Assembly (NCBI RefSeq): GCF_002215035.1
Contig: NZ_NKFP01000006.1
Coordinates: 3,997,080 to 4,061,079, forward strand
DNA from: Leptolyngbya ohadii IS1
GTDB lineage: Bacteria > Cyanobacteriota > Cyanobacteriia > Elainellales > Elainellaceae
Length of the DNA stretch: 64,000 nt
Direction of reading: 5' to 3'
This document shows, piece by piece, positions 3,011 to 63,967 of the stretch (its first letter is position 1; every line of letters begins with the position of its first letter). The position numbers and the translations under genes were made by a program. The notes under the pieces were generated by a model that saw nothing but the letters and a program-made list of their open reading frames with translations, did not search any database and was not told the DNA's origin.

Positions 3011-3259
3011 TCATAAGCGCCCCAACTCTCGTAAGTTTTTCAGATCCAACTCAAAATCTTCAACATCATAGGAATACAGTGCTATCTTGCGCTGCTTCAA
3101 AAGTTCGCGAAAAGCATTAAGCGGCATATCTGCTAGACGGCTTGCATAGCCAATCGTTAAACGCCCTGTTTGAAATAGATGTATAGCTATTTCCTGGCAA
3201 AACTCATCCGCTGTTAGTTGAGAGGCTTGCAGGATTTCGTCCGAGATAACAATACTCAT
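3011..3259 (-). CDS. UPF0175 family protein (putative antitoxin, orphan)
   Basis: 82 residues. The pattern AIHLFQTGRLTIGYASRLADMPLNAF is the UPF0175 core, a helix-turn-helix-like domain. In cyanobacteria and archaea UPF0175 genes normally sit directly upstream of a DUF3368/PIN toxin gene. Here the next gene on the strand is another antitoxin-like gene 56 bp away, so the expected toxin is missing. The region is AT-rich compared with the core genes, in keeping with transfer. Confidence 0.75.
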   Translation of the reverse strand: MSIVISDEILQASQLTADEFCQEIAIHLFQTGRLTIGYASRLADMPLNAFRELLKQRKIALYSYDVEDFELDLKNLRELGRL

Positions 3260-3355: not shown

Positions 3356-3442
3356 GTATAACGCCTCAAATCAGCGACGGTAGATAACCTCGGCAACTTC
3401 ACCAGTGACTTTCGCCCGTCCGCTGCATTTGAATTGTTAGAC
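3356..3442 (-). mobile_element. attC-like recombination site (integron cassette type), copy 1
   Basis: On the minus strand the segment opens with GTCTAAC (fits the R'' consensus RYYYAAC) and ends with GTTATAC (close to R' GTTRRRY). Between them, AATTCAAATGCAGCG pairs with CGCTGATTTGAGGC, giving an imperfect inverted repeat with one unpaired G, as in the extrahelical bases of attC sites. It is 87 bp long and begins 36 bp after the stop of the pentapeptide-repeat gene, which is the expected position of attC in a cassette. It is homologous to the site at 62587-62671. No integrase is seen. Confidence 0.65.
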
Positions 3443-3478: not shown

Positions 3479-4546
3479 TTAATGCAACTCTAGCTCTTTG
3501 CGAAACTGATCGTCGTATATCGCTTCGTCCCAAAACTTGGATGCCTTAATTTGCTCTACAGTTATGAATCTTACTCCACGTAAGTCAGCACCTTGAAGAT
3601 TTGCACCATCAAGCTTTGCTTTGTCGAGGTTGGCACCTTGAAGATTAGCTTTACTGAGATTAGCTAGTCGTAAATCAATACCTGCTGCTCTAGCCCCTTC
3701 AAGCTTTGCGTTTTGAAGGTTTGTACGTTGCCAGTTATTGCTCATCCCGCTCATAATGGCACCACGCAAGTCAGCATCTTGAAGGTTAGCCCCCTCAAGG
3801 TTTGCATTCCATAGTAACGCATTTACTAGATTTGCCTGTTTAAGATCAACGCCTGGAGCTATTAGATATGCTCCAGATTCTTGAGGATTGAAATTATTTG
3901 GGAACTTAGTTTCTTGGTCGTATAAGGCATGAGTAAATGCAACATCTACGAACAGAGCATTACTAAAATCAGAACCAAAAATTCTTGCTTTATGGAAATC
4001 AACAACCTCAAAGGTAGTTCTACAAAAGTTAGCCCTACTTAAATCAGCCTCTTGAAAACCACAAACATAGAGGTATGAATCTTCTAGACAAAGCTCCTCA
4101 AGTTTTGCTCCGTTCGCTGCAACATTTGTGAGTTTGATTGATTCTCCATCGGCATCCTCTTCTGCTGCCAACCCTTCTAGAGCAATCCTTAACGAAGTGC
4201 TATACAACCTGCCATCTTTACCTCTTTGCGTCGTTCTTGCAGCATCAACTGCCTTCCAATATTCAAGCTGCCTTCTTCTTGCCTCTTCTTGTGCTCTCTC
4301 CTCCCATTTAGGGATTTCTCTCAAGAATGCAATAGCAGCAATCAGTAAACCCAGCTTACTGAGAGAATCAAGAGCTTTAATAAATGCTGATTTTTCAAGC
4401 CAAGTAGCCAGTTGGTCGGAAAACAGAAGCGTGACCAGCAGAAGAATGGCAATCCCCAACCAAACACCCCATTCCACACGTACAGTTTTCCAAATTAAGG
4501 AACTCAGTGTTCGACGCTTGTGTCTCTTAGCTGCCATACCGTCCAA
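3479..4546 (-). CDS. Membrane-anchored pentapeptide-repeat protein
   Basis: 355 residues. The N-terminus has a basic leader, then two hydrophobic segments (about residues 27-45 and 63-78), a charged linker rich in Glu/Arg, and then two blocks of pentapeptide repeats (A(D/N)LXX) at about 150-210 and 240-335, such as DLKQANLVNALLWNANL. Such repeats form a right-handed quadrilateral beta-helix. The function of this protein is unknown. An in-frame Met at codon 4 is an alternative start. The gene is AT-rich, and it is bounded 3' by an attC-like site and 5' by a GTTAGAC word, so it may be an integron cassette. Confidence 0.85.
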   Translation of the reverse strand: MDGMAAKRHKRRTLSSLIWKTVRVEWGVWLGIAILLLVTLLFSDQLATWLEKSAFIKALDSLSKLGLLIAAIAFLREIPKWEERAQEEARRRQLEYWKAVDAARTTQRGKDGRLYSTSLRIALEGLAAEEDADGESIKLTNVAANGAKLEELCLEDSYLYVCGFQEADLSRANFCRTTFEVVDFHKARIFGSDFSNALFVDVAFTHALYDQETKFPNNFNPQESGAYLIAPGVDLKQANLVNALLWNANLEGANLQDADLRGAIMSGMSNNWQRTNLQNAKLEGARAAGIDLRLANLSKANLQGANLDKAKLDGANLQGADLRGVRFITVEQIKASKFWDEAIYDDQFRKELELH

Positions 4547-4633
4547 TTAAACTCAAAATCAATCAGATCTATTATTACTTCAACTTTTTGTCCAGAAAAA
4601 ATTTTCTGCTGTTGTGAGGGGTTGCCTTCCGAT

Positions 4634-4776
4634 GTCTAACAATTGTTTAGACTGAATGTTTCCGCCTAAGATCCCATTTTGGCGATATAGGCAGAAATAT
4701 TTCCGCCCAAGATCCCGATTCTGGGTGTTTAGGTAGAAATACATCTACTCTAAGATCCCAATTTAGTCGTGTAGAC
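4634..4776 (+). repeat. Palindromic tandem array 1 (one 19-bp and three about 29-bp palindromes)
   Basis: The 341-bp gap between the pentapeptide gene and the ligase holds a 19-bp palindrome (gtctaacaattgtttagac, 4634-4652), then three units at about 4664-4692, 4705-4734 and 4748-4776. Each unit has the form gcctaagatccc...tatagg(c), with complementary ends, separated by linkers like TGAATGTTTCC and AGAAATATTTCC. The period is about 41-43 bp. The same order recurs inverted at 44949-45029, and related units occur at 63857-63967. No gene is seen in the rest of the gap. Confidence 0.7.
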
Positions 4777-4887
4777 AGCAAATTTCAGTATAACCACCGC
4801 TTTTTCGATCTGTCAGTCCTACCTGAATTGATAGGGCACCATATTTGTGCATTGGAAAATTCGATCGCCCCACTCACCCCAATCCAA

Positions 4888-6675
4888 CTACCCCTCAATC
4901 TCTCCCAGTTCCGCCAATCGCTTCACGGTTTCCAACGTATCAATTTCAGAGACGGGTTTATCGTCACGAATTCGCAGGATGCGAGGGAACCGCAGGGCAT
5001 AGCCGCCTTTGTGCCGTTGGGAGGGCTGAACGCGATCGAATGTTACCTCCAGCACGATTTTCGGTTCGACCGTTCGTACCTTTCCGTGGGCAAATTCCTG
5101 GATCGTGTGTGCCTTAAACCAGTCGGAGAGTTGCTGCACTTCCGCATCGGTGAGTCCGGAGTATGCTTTGCCCACATTGAGTAACGTCGGATCGGTTTCG
5201 CTGGTGCGGATGGCAAAGGTAAAGTCCGATAGAAAGCGGCTGCGTCGTCCGGTTCCCACCTCGGCAGCAGTGACCACAACATCTAAGGTGGCGATCGCCC
5301 GTTTGATCTTCAGCCAGTCCTTGCCGCGACGACCGGGTTTGTAGGGTGCGTCCAGAGCTTTCACCATCAAGCCTTCGTTACCGCGATCGCGGGCTGCTGT
5401 GAATTCTGCGTCCAGGGTGGCTACGTCGGAGCAGCGTTTGCTGAGGGCGCGTCTCAGGTGCAGCGTGTTTAAGCCCAGGCGATCGAGAATTTCCAGGCGG
5501 CGGGTGTAGGGTTCGTTGATCAGAATTGCGCCGTTCTGGTACAGCACATCGTAGACGACAAAGGCGACCGGAATCTCGGACAGCATTGCTTCAGTGAGGG
5601 TTTTCCTGCCGAGTCGTTTCTGCAAGGTCTGGAAGGGCAAAATCTGCTCACCGGAAACGGACACAATTTCCCCGTCCAGAATAAAGCCTGCCTGCGGATC
5701 ATCCCCTAACGCAAAGCTGAGGGAGGCGATCGGCGGCAGCAGATCGGGGAAGGTCTGGGTGATTTCGTCCAGGGTGCGGGAAAAGAGGGCAATTCGCAAA
5801 TCGCCGTAGGGCTTGCCGTGCAGCGAAGCCTCGTTGGTATGAATCAACGGTGCAAGGTGAACCTGTGCCCGAATGCCGTCATATTTATCTTCTACGGCAA
5901 ATTCCTGCGGCAGCAGTCGCGCCACCTCTTCCAGATCCTCCGCCGGACTCGCCAGCATGAACTTAATCGGATGAAATAGCTGCATCTGCGCCTGATCCAG
6001 CTTTTCCTGCCGTGCCAGAACTGCGGTTCTGCCAATGTCCCCCAGCAGCATATTCACCCACTGAATCCGCTCCACGGGTTCTTTTGACAGACGGGCGATC
6101 GCATCTTCTACGGCTCCTTCCCGCAGACCAATTCGCAAATCCCCAGCCAGCAGCTTAATCAGATATTTTGCTTCCAGCCGAGTCGCCTGCCGGAGCAACT
6201 GCACAATCCATTCCTGCTTGCGCTTTGTGCCTTTGATTTGCACCAACTGTTCTAAAGCCAGTGCCAGATCTTGCAGCGTAATCGTAGGAGAAACCCGATC
6301 GCGCCACACCTCGAACGCCAAATCGCCCGGATCTCCCAGTTTGACAAGCTGCGGCTTCAGCGTCTCTGCATCAATTTCAGTGACGATCGCCAGTGCCACC
6401 AGTAACGTCGCTCCCCCAATGTTTAGCGTCCGCTGATCCTTCAACGGAAACACCGTCCCCGAAAGATAACGCGCCGCCAGTTCTAAATCTTCATCGCCCA
6501 AACCGCCGAAATATTGTCCCAAAACGGCAGCTTTTTCCAGTCGCTTCGTTGTCCCATTGACCTGCTCTGCCACCTGAGCAAATTGCAGAAACGATCCGTC
6601 GATCGCTTTATCCGCTGTGTTCGTATAGGGGGTCAAGGAATCTGGCTCTGACTGGGAAATGCGGGAGGGGGTCAT
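4888..6675 (-). CDS. ATP-dependent DNA ligase
   Basis: 595 residues from the chosen start (MTPSRISQ); an in-frame Met 12 codons upstream is possible but adds an unlikely leader. An N-terminal all-helical DNA-binding domain (to about 220) is followed by the nucleotidyltransferase core. Motif I is EDKYDGIRAQVH, with the adenylated Lys at about residue 264. A DGEIVSV motif, an EGLMVK motif and a C-terminal OB-fold with WLKIKRA follow. It seals nicks using ATP, unlike the NAD-dependent LigA that cyanobacteria use for replication, so it is probably an accessory repair ligase of the archaeal/LigB type. Confidence 0.93.
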   Translation of the reverse strand: MTPSRISQSEPDSLTPYTNTADKAIDGSFLQFAQVAEQVNGTTKRLEKAAVLGQYFGGLGDEDLELAARYLSGTVFPLKDQRTLNIGGATLLVALAIVTEIDAETLKPQLVKLGDPGDLAFEVWRDRVSPTITLQDLALALEQLVQIKGTKRKQEWIVQLLRQATRLEAKYLIKLLAGDLRIGLREGAVEDAIARLSKEPVERIQWVNMLLGDIGRTAVLARQEKLDQAQMQLFHPIKFMLASPAEDLEEVARLLPQEFAVEDKYDGIRAQVHLAPLIHTNEASLHGKPYGDLRIALFSRTLDEITQTFPDLLPPIASLSFALGDDPQAGFILDGEIVSVSGEQILPFQTLQKRLGRKTLTEAMLSEIPVAFVVYDVLYQNGAILINEPYTRRLEILDRLGLNTLHLRRALSKRCSDVATLDAEFTAARDRGNEGLMVKALDAPYKPGRRGKDWLKIKRAIATLDVVVTAAEVGTGRRSRFLSDFTFAIRTSETDPTLLNVGKAYSGLTDAEVQQLSDWFKAHTIQEFAHGKVRTVEPKIVLEVTFDRVQPSQRHKGGYALRFPRILRIRDDKPVSEIDTLETVKRLAELGEIEG

Positions 6676-6922
6676 GGTGCTGTGCGAAGTCCATTTCTCA
6701 CACCGTAGCACGCGAATTTTGGTGAAAACCGCAGGTTCAACTCGATTCCTGCTAGAGAGAGATCAGTAGAAAAACCCAATCGCTCTCAGGAGATGAATTG
6801 ATACGCTACAGAAGTCAGAGATAGTGATTCACCTCAGACCCGCAAGGGTCTTTTCTTTTTGGTTCAAAATTTCAAATCTCAAGATTTTTGAGTTTCAAAA
6901 TTTTTGAGTTTCAAGAGTTAAT

Positions 6923-42928: not shown

Positions 42929-42978
42929 ACAAACTATCAGTGCCACCAATAATCTGCCTGCATAAGGAAGATTATTTT

Positions 42979-43638
42979 TTGCCCATAAAGAGTGATCCTG
43001 TGATTCTAGAAAGTGATACTACACCCCTAGAAAACTTCCTCTTATGCCTTCGAGAAACAGAGGATGACGATGGGCTAATGGATTTGTGCAGAAAAAGAAT
43101 CTTGCATGGTATCCCATATATTTTTGAGGGTAGGGAAGATGCTTACTATGAATTTAGAAAAAGGATATCTAGAAAGTTCAATATAGATTTCCACGAAGTT
43201 TTTATAGCTGGTTCTGCCAAGCTAGGATTCAGCCCCCATAAAAAGAAGATGTTTGACTATGATTCTGATATTGATATTGCAATAGTATCACCAAGACTTT
43301 ATGAAAAGATCCTTGATAGTATTTGTGACTACCAGATGGAATTAAGGAGAGCAAGACGAACAATAACAGTTAAAGAGCTAGCAATGTATCACGAGTTCTT
43401 GGAGTACACAGCAATCGGTTGGATTCGTCCTGATAAACTTCCTTTGTCCTTCCAAGTTGATAAGCTGAAGACTGAATGGTTTGAGTTTTTCAAATCACTT
43501 TCCTATGGAGGGTCTGAAGTTGGAAATTATAAAGCTTCTGCCGGAATCTTTAAAACATATAGGCATTTTGAACAATATACTGTAAGCGGATTCAAGCAGT
43601 TAAAGAAATCTTTAGAGGTTAAAAAGGAAGATGTCTAA
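42979..43638 (+). CDS. Nucleotidyltransferase-fold protein, first gene of a two-gene module
   Basis: 219 residues from a TTG preceded by AAGGAAG eight bases upstream; an in-frame GTG at 42940 is possible but has no ribosome site. The central region has the DNA polymerase beta-type NTase signature: VFIAGSAKLGFSP followed by DYDSDIDIAIV, supplying the GS motif and paired metal-binding Asp residues. A second helical half (EFLEYTAIGWIRPDK...) is not recognised. The gene is distinctly AT-rich relative to flanking acs. It overlaps the DUF262 gene by 8 bp, so the two are co-translated. A role as a defence enzyme or as an NTase antitoxin is inference. Confidence 0.75.
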   Translation: MPIKSDPVILESDTTPLENFLLCLRETEDDDGLMDLCRKRILHGIPYIFEGREDAYYEFRKRISRKFNIDFHEVFIAGSAKLGFSPHKKKMFDYDSDIDIAIVSPRLYEKILDSICDYQMELRRARRTITVKELAMYHEFLEYTAIGWIRPDKLPLSFQVDKLKTEWFEFFKSLSYGGSEVGNYKASAGIFKTYRHFEQYTVSGFKQLKKSLEVKKEDV

Positions 43639-44665
43639 TCAGATTAAACCCTCAGTCACTAATCCTACCATTGCTGATATTTATCAATATATTGAATCAG
43701 GAAGGCTTGTTCTAAAGCCTGATTTCCAAAGAAGATTTGTATGGACTCATGATCATCAAGAAGATTTCATAGATACTATTCTAAAGGGATATCCGTTTCC
43801 TGAAATATACGTTTGCCAGGGTGATATTGATACTAAAAAGCTACGAACAACCCAGTTTGTGATTGATGGACAACAACGTCTAACAACTATCAAGAAATAT
43901 ATTGATGGAGAACATGATGATAAACCTTTAAGCAAGGTCTTGAAGTTTGAAGACTTGACCGAGGATCAAAGACGCGACTTTCTGTCATATCAAATAGTAG
44001 TACGTGACATTGGCAAAGTAGAAGATGAGACAATTAGAGAAATTTTCAGGAGAATTAATCTAACTAAATTTCAGTTGGATGACATTGAAGTTCACAATGC
44101 TGTTTATAACGGGTACTTCATTAAAACAGCGAAAGAGATCCTTGAAGATATTTCTCTTCGAGATTATGGAGTTTTTTATGATTCAGAATTTACAAGAATG
44201 GCTGATTTACATTTCATCTTATTAGTAATGTCAACGCTTGAAAACAAGGGTTATTTTCCCAGAGATAATGATATCGAAACATATATTGCAGCAAATAATG
44301 ATTTCTACCCTAATAGAGATCATATGAAAGCCCAACTTGTTAAGACATTTGCTGTTATCAAAGATTTAAATTTGCCTCTTGACTCAATTTGGTTTAGGAA
44401 ATCTAATTTCTTCACACTTGTAGTAGAACTGTCGAATAATATCAACAAGATCCCGAAGGATATAGTTTCTCGTTTGATGGAATTAGAAGCTAGGATTTTA
44501 GAGAACAAAAACAATGCAAAGACTGAATTCGGGGTCTACTATTCCTATATGTACCAAGCAACTAACAATCGAAAGGCGAGAGTTGTTCGAGGTGAAACAT
44601 TTAATAAATACATATTCTCTGGGGTTAGTACGCAAGCTAACGATTCAAGTTCAGCAGACATTTGA
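43631..44665 (+). CDS. DUF262 protein (ParB/Srx-like nucleotide-hydrolysing fold)
   Basis: 344 residues. The DUF262 signature is clear: LVLKPDFQRRFVWTHDHQEDF, IDTILKGYPFPEIYV, then FVIDGQQRLTTI with the DGQQR motif, and EIFRRINLTKFQL. The C-terminal DUF1524/HNH nuclease domain found in GmrS-D, BrxU and SspE-like proteins is absent: the remaining 180 residues are helical with no HNH motif. It is co-translated with the NTase gene upstream. DUF262 proteins are often anti-phage effectors, so the pair may be a defence module with an unusual partner. AT-rich codon use supports acquisition by transfer. Confidence 0.85.
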   Translation: MSNQIKPSVTNPTIADIYQYIESGRLVLKPDFQRRFVWTHDHQEDFIDTILKGYPFPEIYVCQGDIDTKKLRTTQFVIDGQQRLTTIKKYIDGEHDDKPLSKVLKFEDLTEDQRRDFLSYQIVVRDIGKVEDETIREIFRRINLTKFQLDDIEVHNAVYNGYFIKTAKEILEDISLRDYGVFYDSEFTRMADLHFILLVMSTLENKGYFPRDNDIETYIAANNDFYPNRDHMKAQLVKTFAVIKDLNLPLDSIWFRKSNFFTLVVELSNNINKIPKDIVSRLMELEARILENKNNAKTEFGVYYSYMYQATNNRKARVVRGETFNKYIFSGVSTQANDSSSADI

Positions 44666-44785
44666 TAGATGCTGAGTTTGAAGATGTCTATTTCCAATGA
44701 TTTGAGCCGTTAAGCTGTCAATGATGAGCTTGTAGAATAGACGAATTTATTAGTTGCTAAAGCACCTTATGATTCAGGATATTCA

Positions 44786-44956
44786 ATGATTTTGGTCTGC
44801 ACCTATGACGATCGCACCTATCACTTCAGAACACCTGCTTCAAGTAATATTTGGCGTTCCTTAAGGCGATCGTCTCGCCCTTTTTTCCTTTATCTGAAGG
44901 GGCAGAAATATGTAGAAATCGCTGCGTGTATCATGAAAGTGAGAGGAGGATCTTAG
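44786..44956 (+). CDS. Short open frame of 56 codons beginning MILVCTYDDR, doubtful
   Basis: The frame starts at an ATG and ends at TAG just before array 2. The first ten residues, MILVCTYDDR, are encoded by a segment repeated almost exactly at 46077-46106, where the copy reads MVLVCTYDDR and ends after 41 codons. There is no clear ribosome site. The repetition suggests that both are 5' pieces of one former gene or a dispersed element. The rest of the 389-bp gap 44666-45054 holds array 2 and nothing else recognised. Confidence 0.25.
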   Translation: MILVCTYDDRTYHFRTPASSNIWRSLRRSSRPFFLYLKGQKYVEIAACIMKVRGGS

Positions 44957-45029
44957 GCAGACAAAGCTCGGTCTAATGTCCCAGTGAGGGGAATTAGGCG
45001 GAAAGATTCAGTCTAAATAATCGCTAGAC
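44949..45029 (-). repeat. Palindromic tandem array 2, same order as array 1 on the opposite strand
   Basis: Read on the minus strand: a 19-bp palindrome (45029-45011, gtctagcgattatttagac), linker TGAATCTTTCC, a 29-bp palindrome (44999-44971, gcctaattcccc...attagac), a 12-base linker, then a half unit beginning gcctaagatcc (44958-44949). This matches the order and linker of array 1 on the plus strand. It ends about 25 bp before the ATG of the antitoxin gene, so it may lie in its leader or promoter. Confidence 0.7.
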
Positions 45030-45054
45030 TGAGCAATTATCAGGAGGTACGGGA

Positions 45055-62586: not shown

Positions 62587-62671
62587 GCGTAACAGTTTAA
62601 ATCAGCGGCGACAGATAACTTCAACTCAGTGTTAGCGGCTCGAAATCGTCCGCTGAAATTTGAGTTTAGTC
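62587..62671 (-). mobile_element. attC-like recombination site (integron cassette type), copy 2
   Basis: On the minus strand: GACTAAAC at the left, CTCAAATTTCAGCGG pairing with CCGCTGATTTAAACTG, and GTTACGC at the right. The stop codon TAA of the preceding gene lies inside the left box, a frequent arrangement in cassettes. Copy 1 (3356-3442) shares GTTATCT and CGCTGATTT at matching positions, and the lengths are 85 and 87 bp. No integrase gene is in the window. Confidence 0.6.
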
Positions 62672-63750: not shown

Positions 63751-63856
63751 CGTGCTTTCAACTAGAAGGCATGAATTATTTTATACATCTGTGAGCGGTG
63801 CAACTACCTTCCCGAAAGGTTGGGCAGGCTGACTGCTATTCAGACGGATAACCTCT

Positions 63857-63967
63857 GCCTAATCATCCTTGTGGAGACGTCAGATCAAATTCTATCCGTC
63901 TAATCTCCCAACAAGGTGATTTAGGCTGCATCGGGTTAGGATAACATTCCGATCTAGCGCATTAGAC
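63857..63967 (+). repeat. Palindromic tandem array 3
   Basis: Units: about 63857-63886 (gcctaatcatcc..., decayed), linker AAATTCTATCC, a good 29-bp palindrome at 63898-63926 (gtctaatctccc...atttaggc), a 24-bp linker ending AACATTCC, and a short gatctagcgcattagac unit (63951-63967). The units match arrays 1 and 2. The remaining end of the window has no gene. Confidence 0.65.

Follow-up and report, generated by a model that had tools for sequence, protein, structure and literature searches.

A pentapeptide-repeat gene cassette at a probable iteron-type attI without an adjacent integrase in Leptolyngbya ohadii IS1, probably served by IntI in trans

An integron is usually described as one integrase, one attI site and one cassette array beside it. 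In a 64,000-nucleotide stretch of the Leptolyngbya ohadii IS1 genome (hereafter the window), a pentapeptide-repeat gene is followed by an attC-like inverted repeat and preceded by a GTTAGAC box, and no integrase gene adjoins it. This locus raises the question of whether the gene is an integron cassette and, if so, by what means it was inserted there. The window was compared with a set of 98 genomes that comprised its own genome (G000), one of the same genus (G001, the sole other genome of that genus in the set), 34 of the same family and 62 of the same class; G-numbers denote genomes, L-numbers denote loci, and C4 and C6 are contigs of G000. On the strength of sequence comparisons, we hold with considerable confidence that the pentapeptide gene and its attC form a real integron cassette inserted where an iteron-type attI with no adjacent integrase has its crossover GTT, and that this is one of many such platforms, probably served by IntI in trans.

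The attC lies at 3356-3442 on the minus strand, with R'' at 3442-3436 and R' at 3362-3356. As the initial annotation had described, GTCTAAC and GTTATAC bound an 87-bp imperfect inverted repeat with an extra base on this strand (GTCTAAC-AATTC-AAAT-G-CAGCG ... CGCTG-ATTT-GAGGC-GTTATAC), and the site starts 36 bp past the gene's stop codon, which begins at 3479. The R'' consensus of attC sites is RYYYAAC, with which GTCTAAC agrees. For R', PMC7923331 gives GTTRRRY, and it prints R'' as RYYYACC; GTTATAC agrees with GTTRRRY at 6 of 7 positions, and its one non-consensus base was counted against our main reading. A covariance model, R1, was built from an alignment of 32 attC copies (two rows identical) that includes the window's own site. 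In a search of the 64-kb window R1 scored the site at 94.4 bits (E 2e-23), partly by construction since the alignment contains it, and the independent evidence is therefore BLAST of the site against other genomes. This gave matches at E<=1 in 83 of the 98 genomes, many weak ones of which may be chance; among the matches listed were dozens of copies in other genera and families with 77-86% identity over most of the site, many relatives having copies at 80-86%, the best E in another genome being 1.9e-21.

The 32-copy alignment also bears on the hairpin itself. In the consensus hairpin 95.2% of cells were paired, a value that fell to 22.7-49.4% when the partners were slid by 1-3 columns, and compensatory changes were seen in that 7 of the 21 stem pairs were altered on both sides. 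On none of five covariation measures was any of 500 shuffles as high, an outcome that related sequences alone can also produce. Folded as DNA, the bottom (plus) strand formed one long hairpin (-12.3 kcal/mol, z = -2.53; 1 of 200 shuffles equal) with two single-base bulges, both on the 3' arm; that the bottom strand, once folded, leaves bases of one arm unpaired is a defining attC feature. The fold of the top strand had a z of -1.38, with 20 of 200 shuffles as good. A strict canonical-attC pattern search of the L. ohadii genome found nothing, the window attC included, which was missed because the pattern did not fit the site. The annotation had proposed an attC-like site, to be checked with an attC covariance model and abandoned if no score rose above background; the model made here scores it far above background, and the relatives' copies and the compensatory stem changes bear the proposal out. 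We regard 3356-3442 as a genuine attC of a cyanobacterial attC family, for which recombination by IntI is predicted.

The gene that this site follows occupies 3479-4537 on the minus strand (Pfam PF00805, E 8e-33), or extends to 4546 if an upstream TTG serves as an alternative start, and its product has a hydrophobic N-terminal region. The cassette as inserted runs from G^TTAGAC (4640) to G^TTATAC (3362) on the minus strand, boundaries that were set by analogy with a GNAT cassette common to G000 and G001. Its length of about 1.28 kb fits the bracketed cassette of about 1.3 kb that had been suggested, and a G+C content of 0.425 for the cassette vs 0.532 for the window agrees with the remark that the gene is AT-rich relative to the core. 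A near full-length homologue of the pentapeptide protein (residues 14-348, 38% identity) sits between two attC sites in G052 (L035), and G021 holds a decayed homologue with an attC and without an attI match. PADLOC gave no defence match for the pentapeptide gene. Past the attC lies a UPF0175 gene (3011-3259, minus strand), possibly a second cassette that lacks its own attC; attC sites are found near the UPF0175 gene in the relatives L131 and L136.

On the 5' side of the gene, the GTTAGAC box that had been noted is present at 4640-4634 on the minus strand. That reading was incomplete, however, because an attI-like platform has its crossover end in this box, where it is joined to the cassette. 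The platform, at 4635-4798 on the minus strand, consists of four iterons that start at 4793, 4753, 4710 and 4669, are spaced 40-43 bp apart and end TTAGGCGGAAACATTCAGTCTAAACAATTGTTAGAC. Arrays of this kind, often with a 41-bp step, precede intI in many of 80 named loci around relatives of the IntI encoded on C4; these relatives are mostly cyanobacterial (Leptolyngbya, Nodosilinea, Phormidium, Pseudanabaena, Elainella), with some MAGs labelled Chloroflexi and others. BLAST with the attC consensus found attC at 21 of the 80 loci, and in 20 of these it lies upstream of intI on the opposite strand, the exception being L051 (same strand). A simple expression picked an attI-like end in 30 of the 80, the others having little upstream sequence or nothing that fitted the expression. 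After eight picks had been dropped by eye (L048, L067, L095, L099, L105, L110, L122 and L124; some mis-picks, some plausible), 22 intI-linked attI of other genomes were aligned to give a sequence model, R2, that contains nothing from the L. ohadii genome. R2, which is partly palindromic and also matches parts of arrays on the other strand, matched the window at 4636-4692 on the minus strand (38.2 bits, E 6e-11), and a profile HMM (nhmmer) from the same alignment matched 4717-4635 with 55.7 bits over model positions 2-84. Moreover, the repeats between intI and the first cassette of the C4 integron end TTAGGCGGAAGCAGTCAGTCTAAATAATAGTTAGC, a close similar to that in the window. Given these matches and the likeness to intI-linked ends, we read 4635-4798 as a probable attI with its crossover at 4640/4639; both its sequence and its cassette junction fit the intI-linked attI sites, which stand between intI and the first cassette and end at the crossover GTT. 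Tandem Repeats Finder did not report the array since its units are too unlike.

No intI adjoins this array. Whereas a complete integron has intI adjacent to attI, the nearest upstream gene here encodes an ATP-dependent DNA ligase (4888-6711, minus strand; ORF and domain search), which lies only about 90 bp from the attI and flanks the platform without being part of it; it is conserved as a neighbour in G001. A complete integron also has a promoter, Pc, that drives its cassettes. At the outer attI edge lies a candidate cassette promoter, CTGACA-18-TATACT (4787-4816, minus strand), a weak candidate because the promoter search found 1 such site vs 0.8 expected by chance. Similar boxes can be seen by eye in the array copies at C6:3080 and C6:1722.

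The annotation had suggested a search for other attC copies and for a cyanobacterial intI, and both are present in the L. ohadii genome. An intact intI without stops lies at C4:627084-628025 (TIGR02249, 462.7 bits vs a curated cut-off of 265). Its product carries Phage_integrase and SAM-like domains (Pfam) and is the sole protein of the genome above the TIGR02249 cut-off, which was passed in none of 14 control genomes. Three attC sites, at 631456, 632280 and 633068, lie beyond the attI in divergent orientation to intI, which is the layout of an ordinary integron. R1 found 13 places in the genome with E<=10, for 12 of which E was <=0.1; apart from the window attC, those 12 comprise eleven places that are absent from the R1 alignment. 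There are seven attI arrays, one beside intI on C4 and six without intI (window 4635, 44948 and 63824; C6:3080881, C6:1722835 and C6:3071156); an attC on the same strand follows within 3.2 kb in six of the seven, 44948 being the one for which none was found. The cassette gene of another intI-less platform, at C6:3079168-3080427 (L241 8169-9428), scored 558 bits against PADLOC HEC-04, which is a candidate protein of anti-phage defence.

Within the window, the nearest other attC sites found with R1 are about 41 and 59 kb from 3356-3442. One, at 44635-44715 on the plus strand (33.7 bits), overlaps the end of a GmrSD-like gene (43631-44665, Pfam). The stretch before it, 42940-44665 on the plus strand, encodes a 232-aa ORF without a Pfam match and a GmrSD/NsnA-like protein, and this two-gene unit is probably cassette-borne. 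A second attI-like array without intI follows at 44948-45030 on the plus strand (R2 51.9 bits, E 3e-15 at 44948-45021); its crossover reads GCTAGAC, and a small ORF and a PIN-domain gene come next. The other attC, at 62587-62670 on the minus strand (R1 45.1 bits), closes a series formed by a third, degenerate attI-like array (63824-63948, minus strand), a RusA-like gene and an AHJR-like nuclease gene. This array is a weak match (R2 19.7 bits at best), ends GTCAGCC and is 70% identical to the C4 attI. The crossover triplet is thus damaged in two of the three window arrays (GCT and GTC), which was counted against our main reading.

Elsewhere in the genome, the TIGR02249 search found a broken N-terminal intI piece with a stop at C6:3427747, and the C6:3427 region looks like a relic second integron, with this remnant and a repeat array that differs by eye. 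Group II introns that are alike interrupt R'', on the bottom strand, of two attC sites, C6:3423966 and C6:1715616. The interrupted sites lie in L009 (C6:3418000-3430000) at 5967-6054 and following, near the broken intI remnant and the different repeat array, and in L242 at 3619-3698, where an ORF at 4202-5536 encodes reverse transcriptase and maturase domains. L003 had been considered as a plain second attC copy and was rejected, being an attC with R'' interrupted by a group II intron.

Cassette content differs between species at platforms that lack intI. The ligase neighbourhood is 79-88% identical over about 3 kb in G001, which has an attI array at the same place and other cassettes behind it: a PemK-like toxin gene (PF02452), followed by genes that include one for a Uma2 family protein. 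The expected strand carries four attC candidates there, of which two are partial. The annotation had taken the presence of the gene and its flanks at one place in all relatives as evidence against a cassette. This was not what was found, in a comparison where the genus is represented by one other genome and the species by one strain. In four other genera the ligase loci (L129, L130, L133 and L134) showed neither attI nor attC within 1.5 kb beyond the match. In a second platform pair, C6:1722 in G000 and C34:1164856 in G001 (a weak array, 18.7 bits), the flanking gene is shared and the cassettes differ. Individual cassettes also recur at other platforms. The GNAT acetyltransferase cassette (PF13302) of the C6:3071 platform in G000 recurs in G001 at platform C77, not in first position, with 87% identity over 594 bp; it begins at the crossover GTT in both genomes, where it is joined to attI in G000 and, in G001, to an attC-like site with a weak score (9.7 bits). 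At the ligase platform of G001, the PemK cassette is 92% identical over 760 bp to one at an attI platform of G014, in another genus, where the identity stops exactly at the attC end and starts about 20 bp inside the junction. We read such exact cassette edges as marks of IntI-type cassette exchange at intI-less platforms.

A census of arrays was taken in nine other family genomes (G023, G008, G014, G001, G009, G025, G012, G020 and G019) and covered 60 regions with 62 arrays. It was drawn from R2 clusters of about 33 bits or more among the matches listed for 13 family genomes, plus one of 32.3 bits; G025:C52:85464 and G019:C7:49865 were left out, and G003, G004 and G006 had no cluster that strong. 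No trace of intI in the expected orientation was found within 1.5 kb upstream of 57 of the 62 arrays. Using an HMM without structure (E<1e-3), a same-strand attC was found within 5 kb downstream of 29 arrays and upstream of 3, and an opposite-strand attC on either side of none. The 33 arrays with no attC within 5 kb downstream at this threshold, like the 3 with an upstream attC, were counted against our main reading. In 60 of the 62 arrays a GTT stood close to where the end was expected, a loose test since the stretch was 20 bases. Outside the family, R2 matched at E<=1e-5 in 8 of 11 genomes picked for strong attC matches (not in G042, G069 or G076) vs 3 of 13 genomes without an attC BLAST match (G058, G059 and G072; Fisher p 0.038, with kinship ignored). 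When these genomes were sorted by integrase, R2 matches occurred in 8 of the 13 that had an intI match (E<=1e-25) and in 3 of the 11 that had none. This control supports the attI reading only partly. Attention is also drawn to attI-like matches in genomes where no integron integrase was detected (G055, G059 and G081 at E<=1e-25; G006 and G014 at E<=1e-15); platforms without a server IntI possibly reflect gaps in the assemblies. Separately, attI-like ends precede relatives of the cyanobacterial intI in L097, L105 and L120, from MAGs labelled Ktedonobacter, Chloroflexi and Anaerolineae, which suggests transfer between phyla or mislabelled bins.

A conserved small gene without a Pfam match, 66-75 aa in its full copies, accompanies many of these sites. 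In nine cases measured in G003 and G009, and in L058, it follows intI or a C-terminal piece of intI at a distance of 326-433 bp (copies at L058 7307-7531, plus strand, and L243 12482-12697, minus strand), and it is found beside 21 of the 62 arrays. Its matches, fragments included, number 40 in G023, 14 in G003, 9 each in G009 and G012, 5 in G001, 3 in G025 and 1 each in G000 and G008. In G023 the small gene belongs to a module of some 500 bp whose edge near the stop codon is sharp, and several copies of this module are followed by unlike sequences that by eye seem able to form hairpins. The module precedes 12 of 12 G023 arrays retrieved, but not the window's platforms, and so does not account for the dispersal of attI.

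The main rival to service in trans is that whole integrons, with cassettes, attI, intI and the small flanking gene, were multiplied and that most copies lost intI, so that the window platform is a relic served by no integrase. We give this account appreciable weight, well short of an even chance. It draws on graded intI remnants in G003, G009, G012, G023, G025 and others, on the 21 arrays that adjoin the small gene found elsewhere some 330-430 bp behind intI or its C-terminal part, and on the damaged crossover triplets of two window arrays. An intI could indeed once have stood beside the window platform and since been lost. The account is opposed, however, by the 57 arrays around which the census found no intI trace, by the short attI-ligase interval in G000 together with the lack of an intI trace at its G001 counterpart, and by cassette content that differs between species at intI-less platforms.

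Two further explanations concern the repeats and the hairpin themselves. An origin of the iteron arrays as some unrelated intergenic repeat, dispersed in the genomes and used by IntI as no more than a secondary target, would suit their multiple copies, their partial R2 matches on both strands and their occurrence in the five genomes named above without an intI match. We consider it quite unlikely, because arrays with the same ends stand between intI and the first cassette at C4 and in integrons of other genomes, and because attC lies on one strand and mostly on one side of the census arrays. These intI-linked copies and this one-sided association also argue against the 41-bp iterons being ordinary cyanobacterial intergenic repeats, a candidate that was rejected. 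Finally, an origin of the attC-like site by chance or as a terminator hairpin would be in keeping with the unremarkable top-strand fold and with the lack of a meaningful Rfam match at the site (Rfam may simply hold no such family), yet is extremely improbable in view of the BLAST homologues, the R1 matches, the covariation, the bottom-strand fold and the expected side and strand of attC at all but one of the intI loci where it was found.

We return to the preferred reading, an integron cassette at an attI platform probably served in trans. The cassette most likely arrived by IntI-catalysed attC x attI recombination, since the bottom strand of the attC folds and G^TT is where the cassette is joined. 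In such an event, IntI from C4, or from earlier copies, would fold and cut the attC bottom strand and would join the cassette, in trans, at the G^TT of the 4635-4798 attI. We infer that IntI from C4, or a lost copy, acted on the window platform in this way and that the platform can still capture cassettes. Transcription of the cassette may proceed from the promoter-like CTGACA-18-TATACT or result from read-through of the ligase gene, whose orientation is the same. In G001, trans action is not evident today because intI is represented there by partial matches only (residues 94-314, and a fragment with stops). As a broader and more tentative proposal, to which we assign slightly less than an even chance, many cyanobacteria may possess a distributed integron, in which one or few integrase genes (sometimes none found) serve many dispersed attI docking sites, some accompanied by the small gene of about 66-75 codons. 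These sites would exchange cassettes in trans beside unrelated genes of the chromosome, with defence-like and toxin-antitoxin-like genes among the cargo.

Should attI platforms function with no integrase next to them, a single IntI could install cassettes at many chromosomal addresses. Platforms that lack intI and have fewer than two attC sites would then escape the usual annotation as complete integron, integrase alone or CALIN. Because the iteron attI is distinctive, a sequence model can search for it directly, and service in trans is therefore testable in culturable cyanobacteria. Searches of open-licence PubMed Central brought up no paper whose title or opening abstract lines concern attI platforms that lack intI, or a cyanobacterial integron of the distributed type; the novelty of such platforms is provisional, since most subscription journals and preprints lie outside that scope. 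The nearest paper in these searches is PMC12901181, on attI sites that occur in shortened form inside the cassettes of mobile integrons. Earlier publications already cover integrons and attC sites of Cyanobacteria: in PMC8352920 Ghaly et al. 2021 modelled cyanobacterial attC sites, and PMC9668308 names the phylum.

Compared with known systems, the locus shares with a sedentary chromosomal integron its attI-like array, a cassette attC on the expected strand and, within the genome, a TIGR02249-family IntI with a three-attC array, but it differs in that the window platform has no intI and in that there are several platforms per genome with one or few cassettes each. The attC belongs to the same phylum and is the same kind of site as those of Ghaly et al. 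(PMC8352920), presumably of the same family. A CALIN is defined for IntegronFinder as a cluster of attC sites lacking an integrase, called by default in version 2.0 from two attC sites up (PMC9024848). The window cassette resembles a CALIN in bearing an attC without a neighbouring integrase and differs from it in being led by an attI-like array and in having one attC only, against the two of that definition. The group IIC-attC introns treated in PMC7923331 find their likeness in the group II introns that interrupt R'' on the bottom strand in the L. ohadii genome, with the difference that these concern C6:3423966 and C6:1715616 and not the attC of the window.
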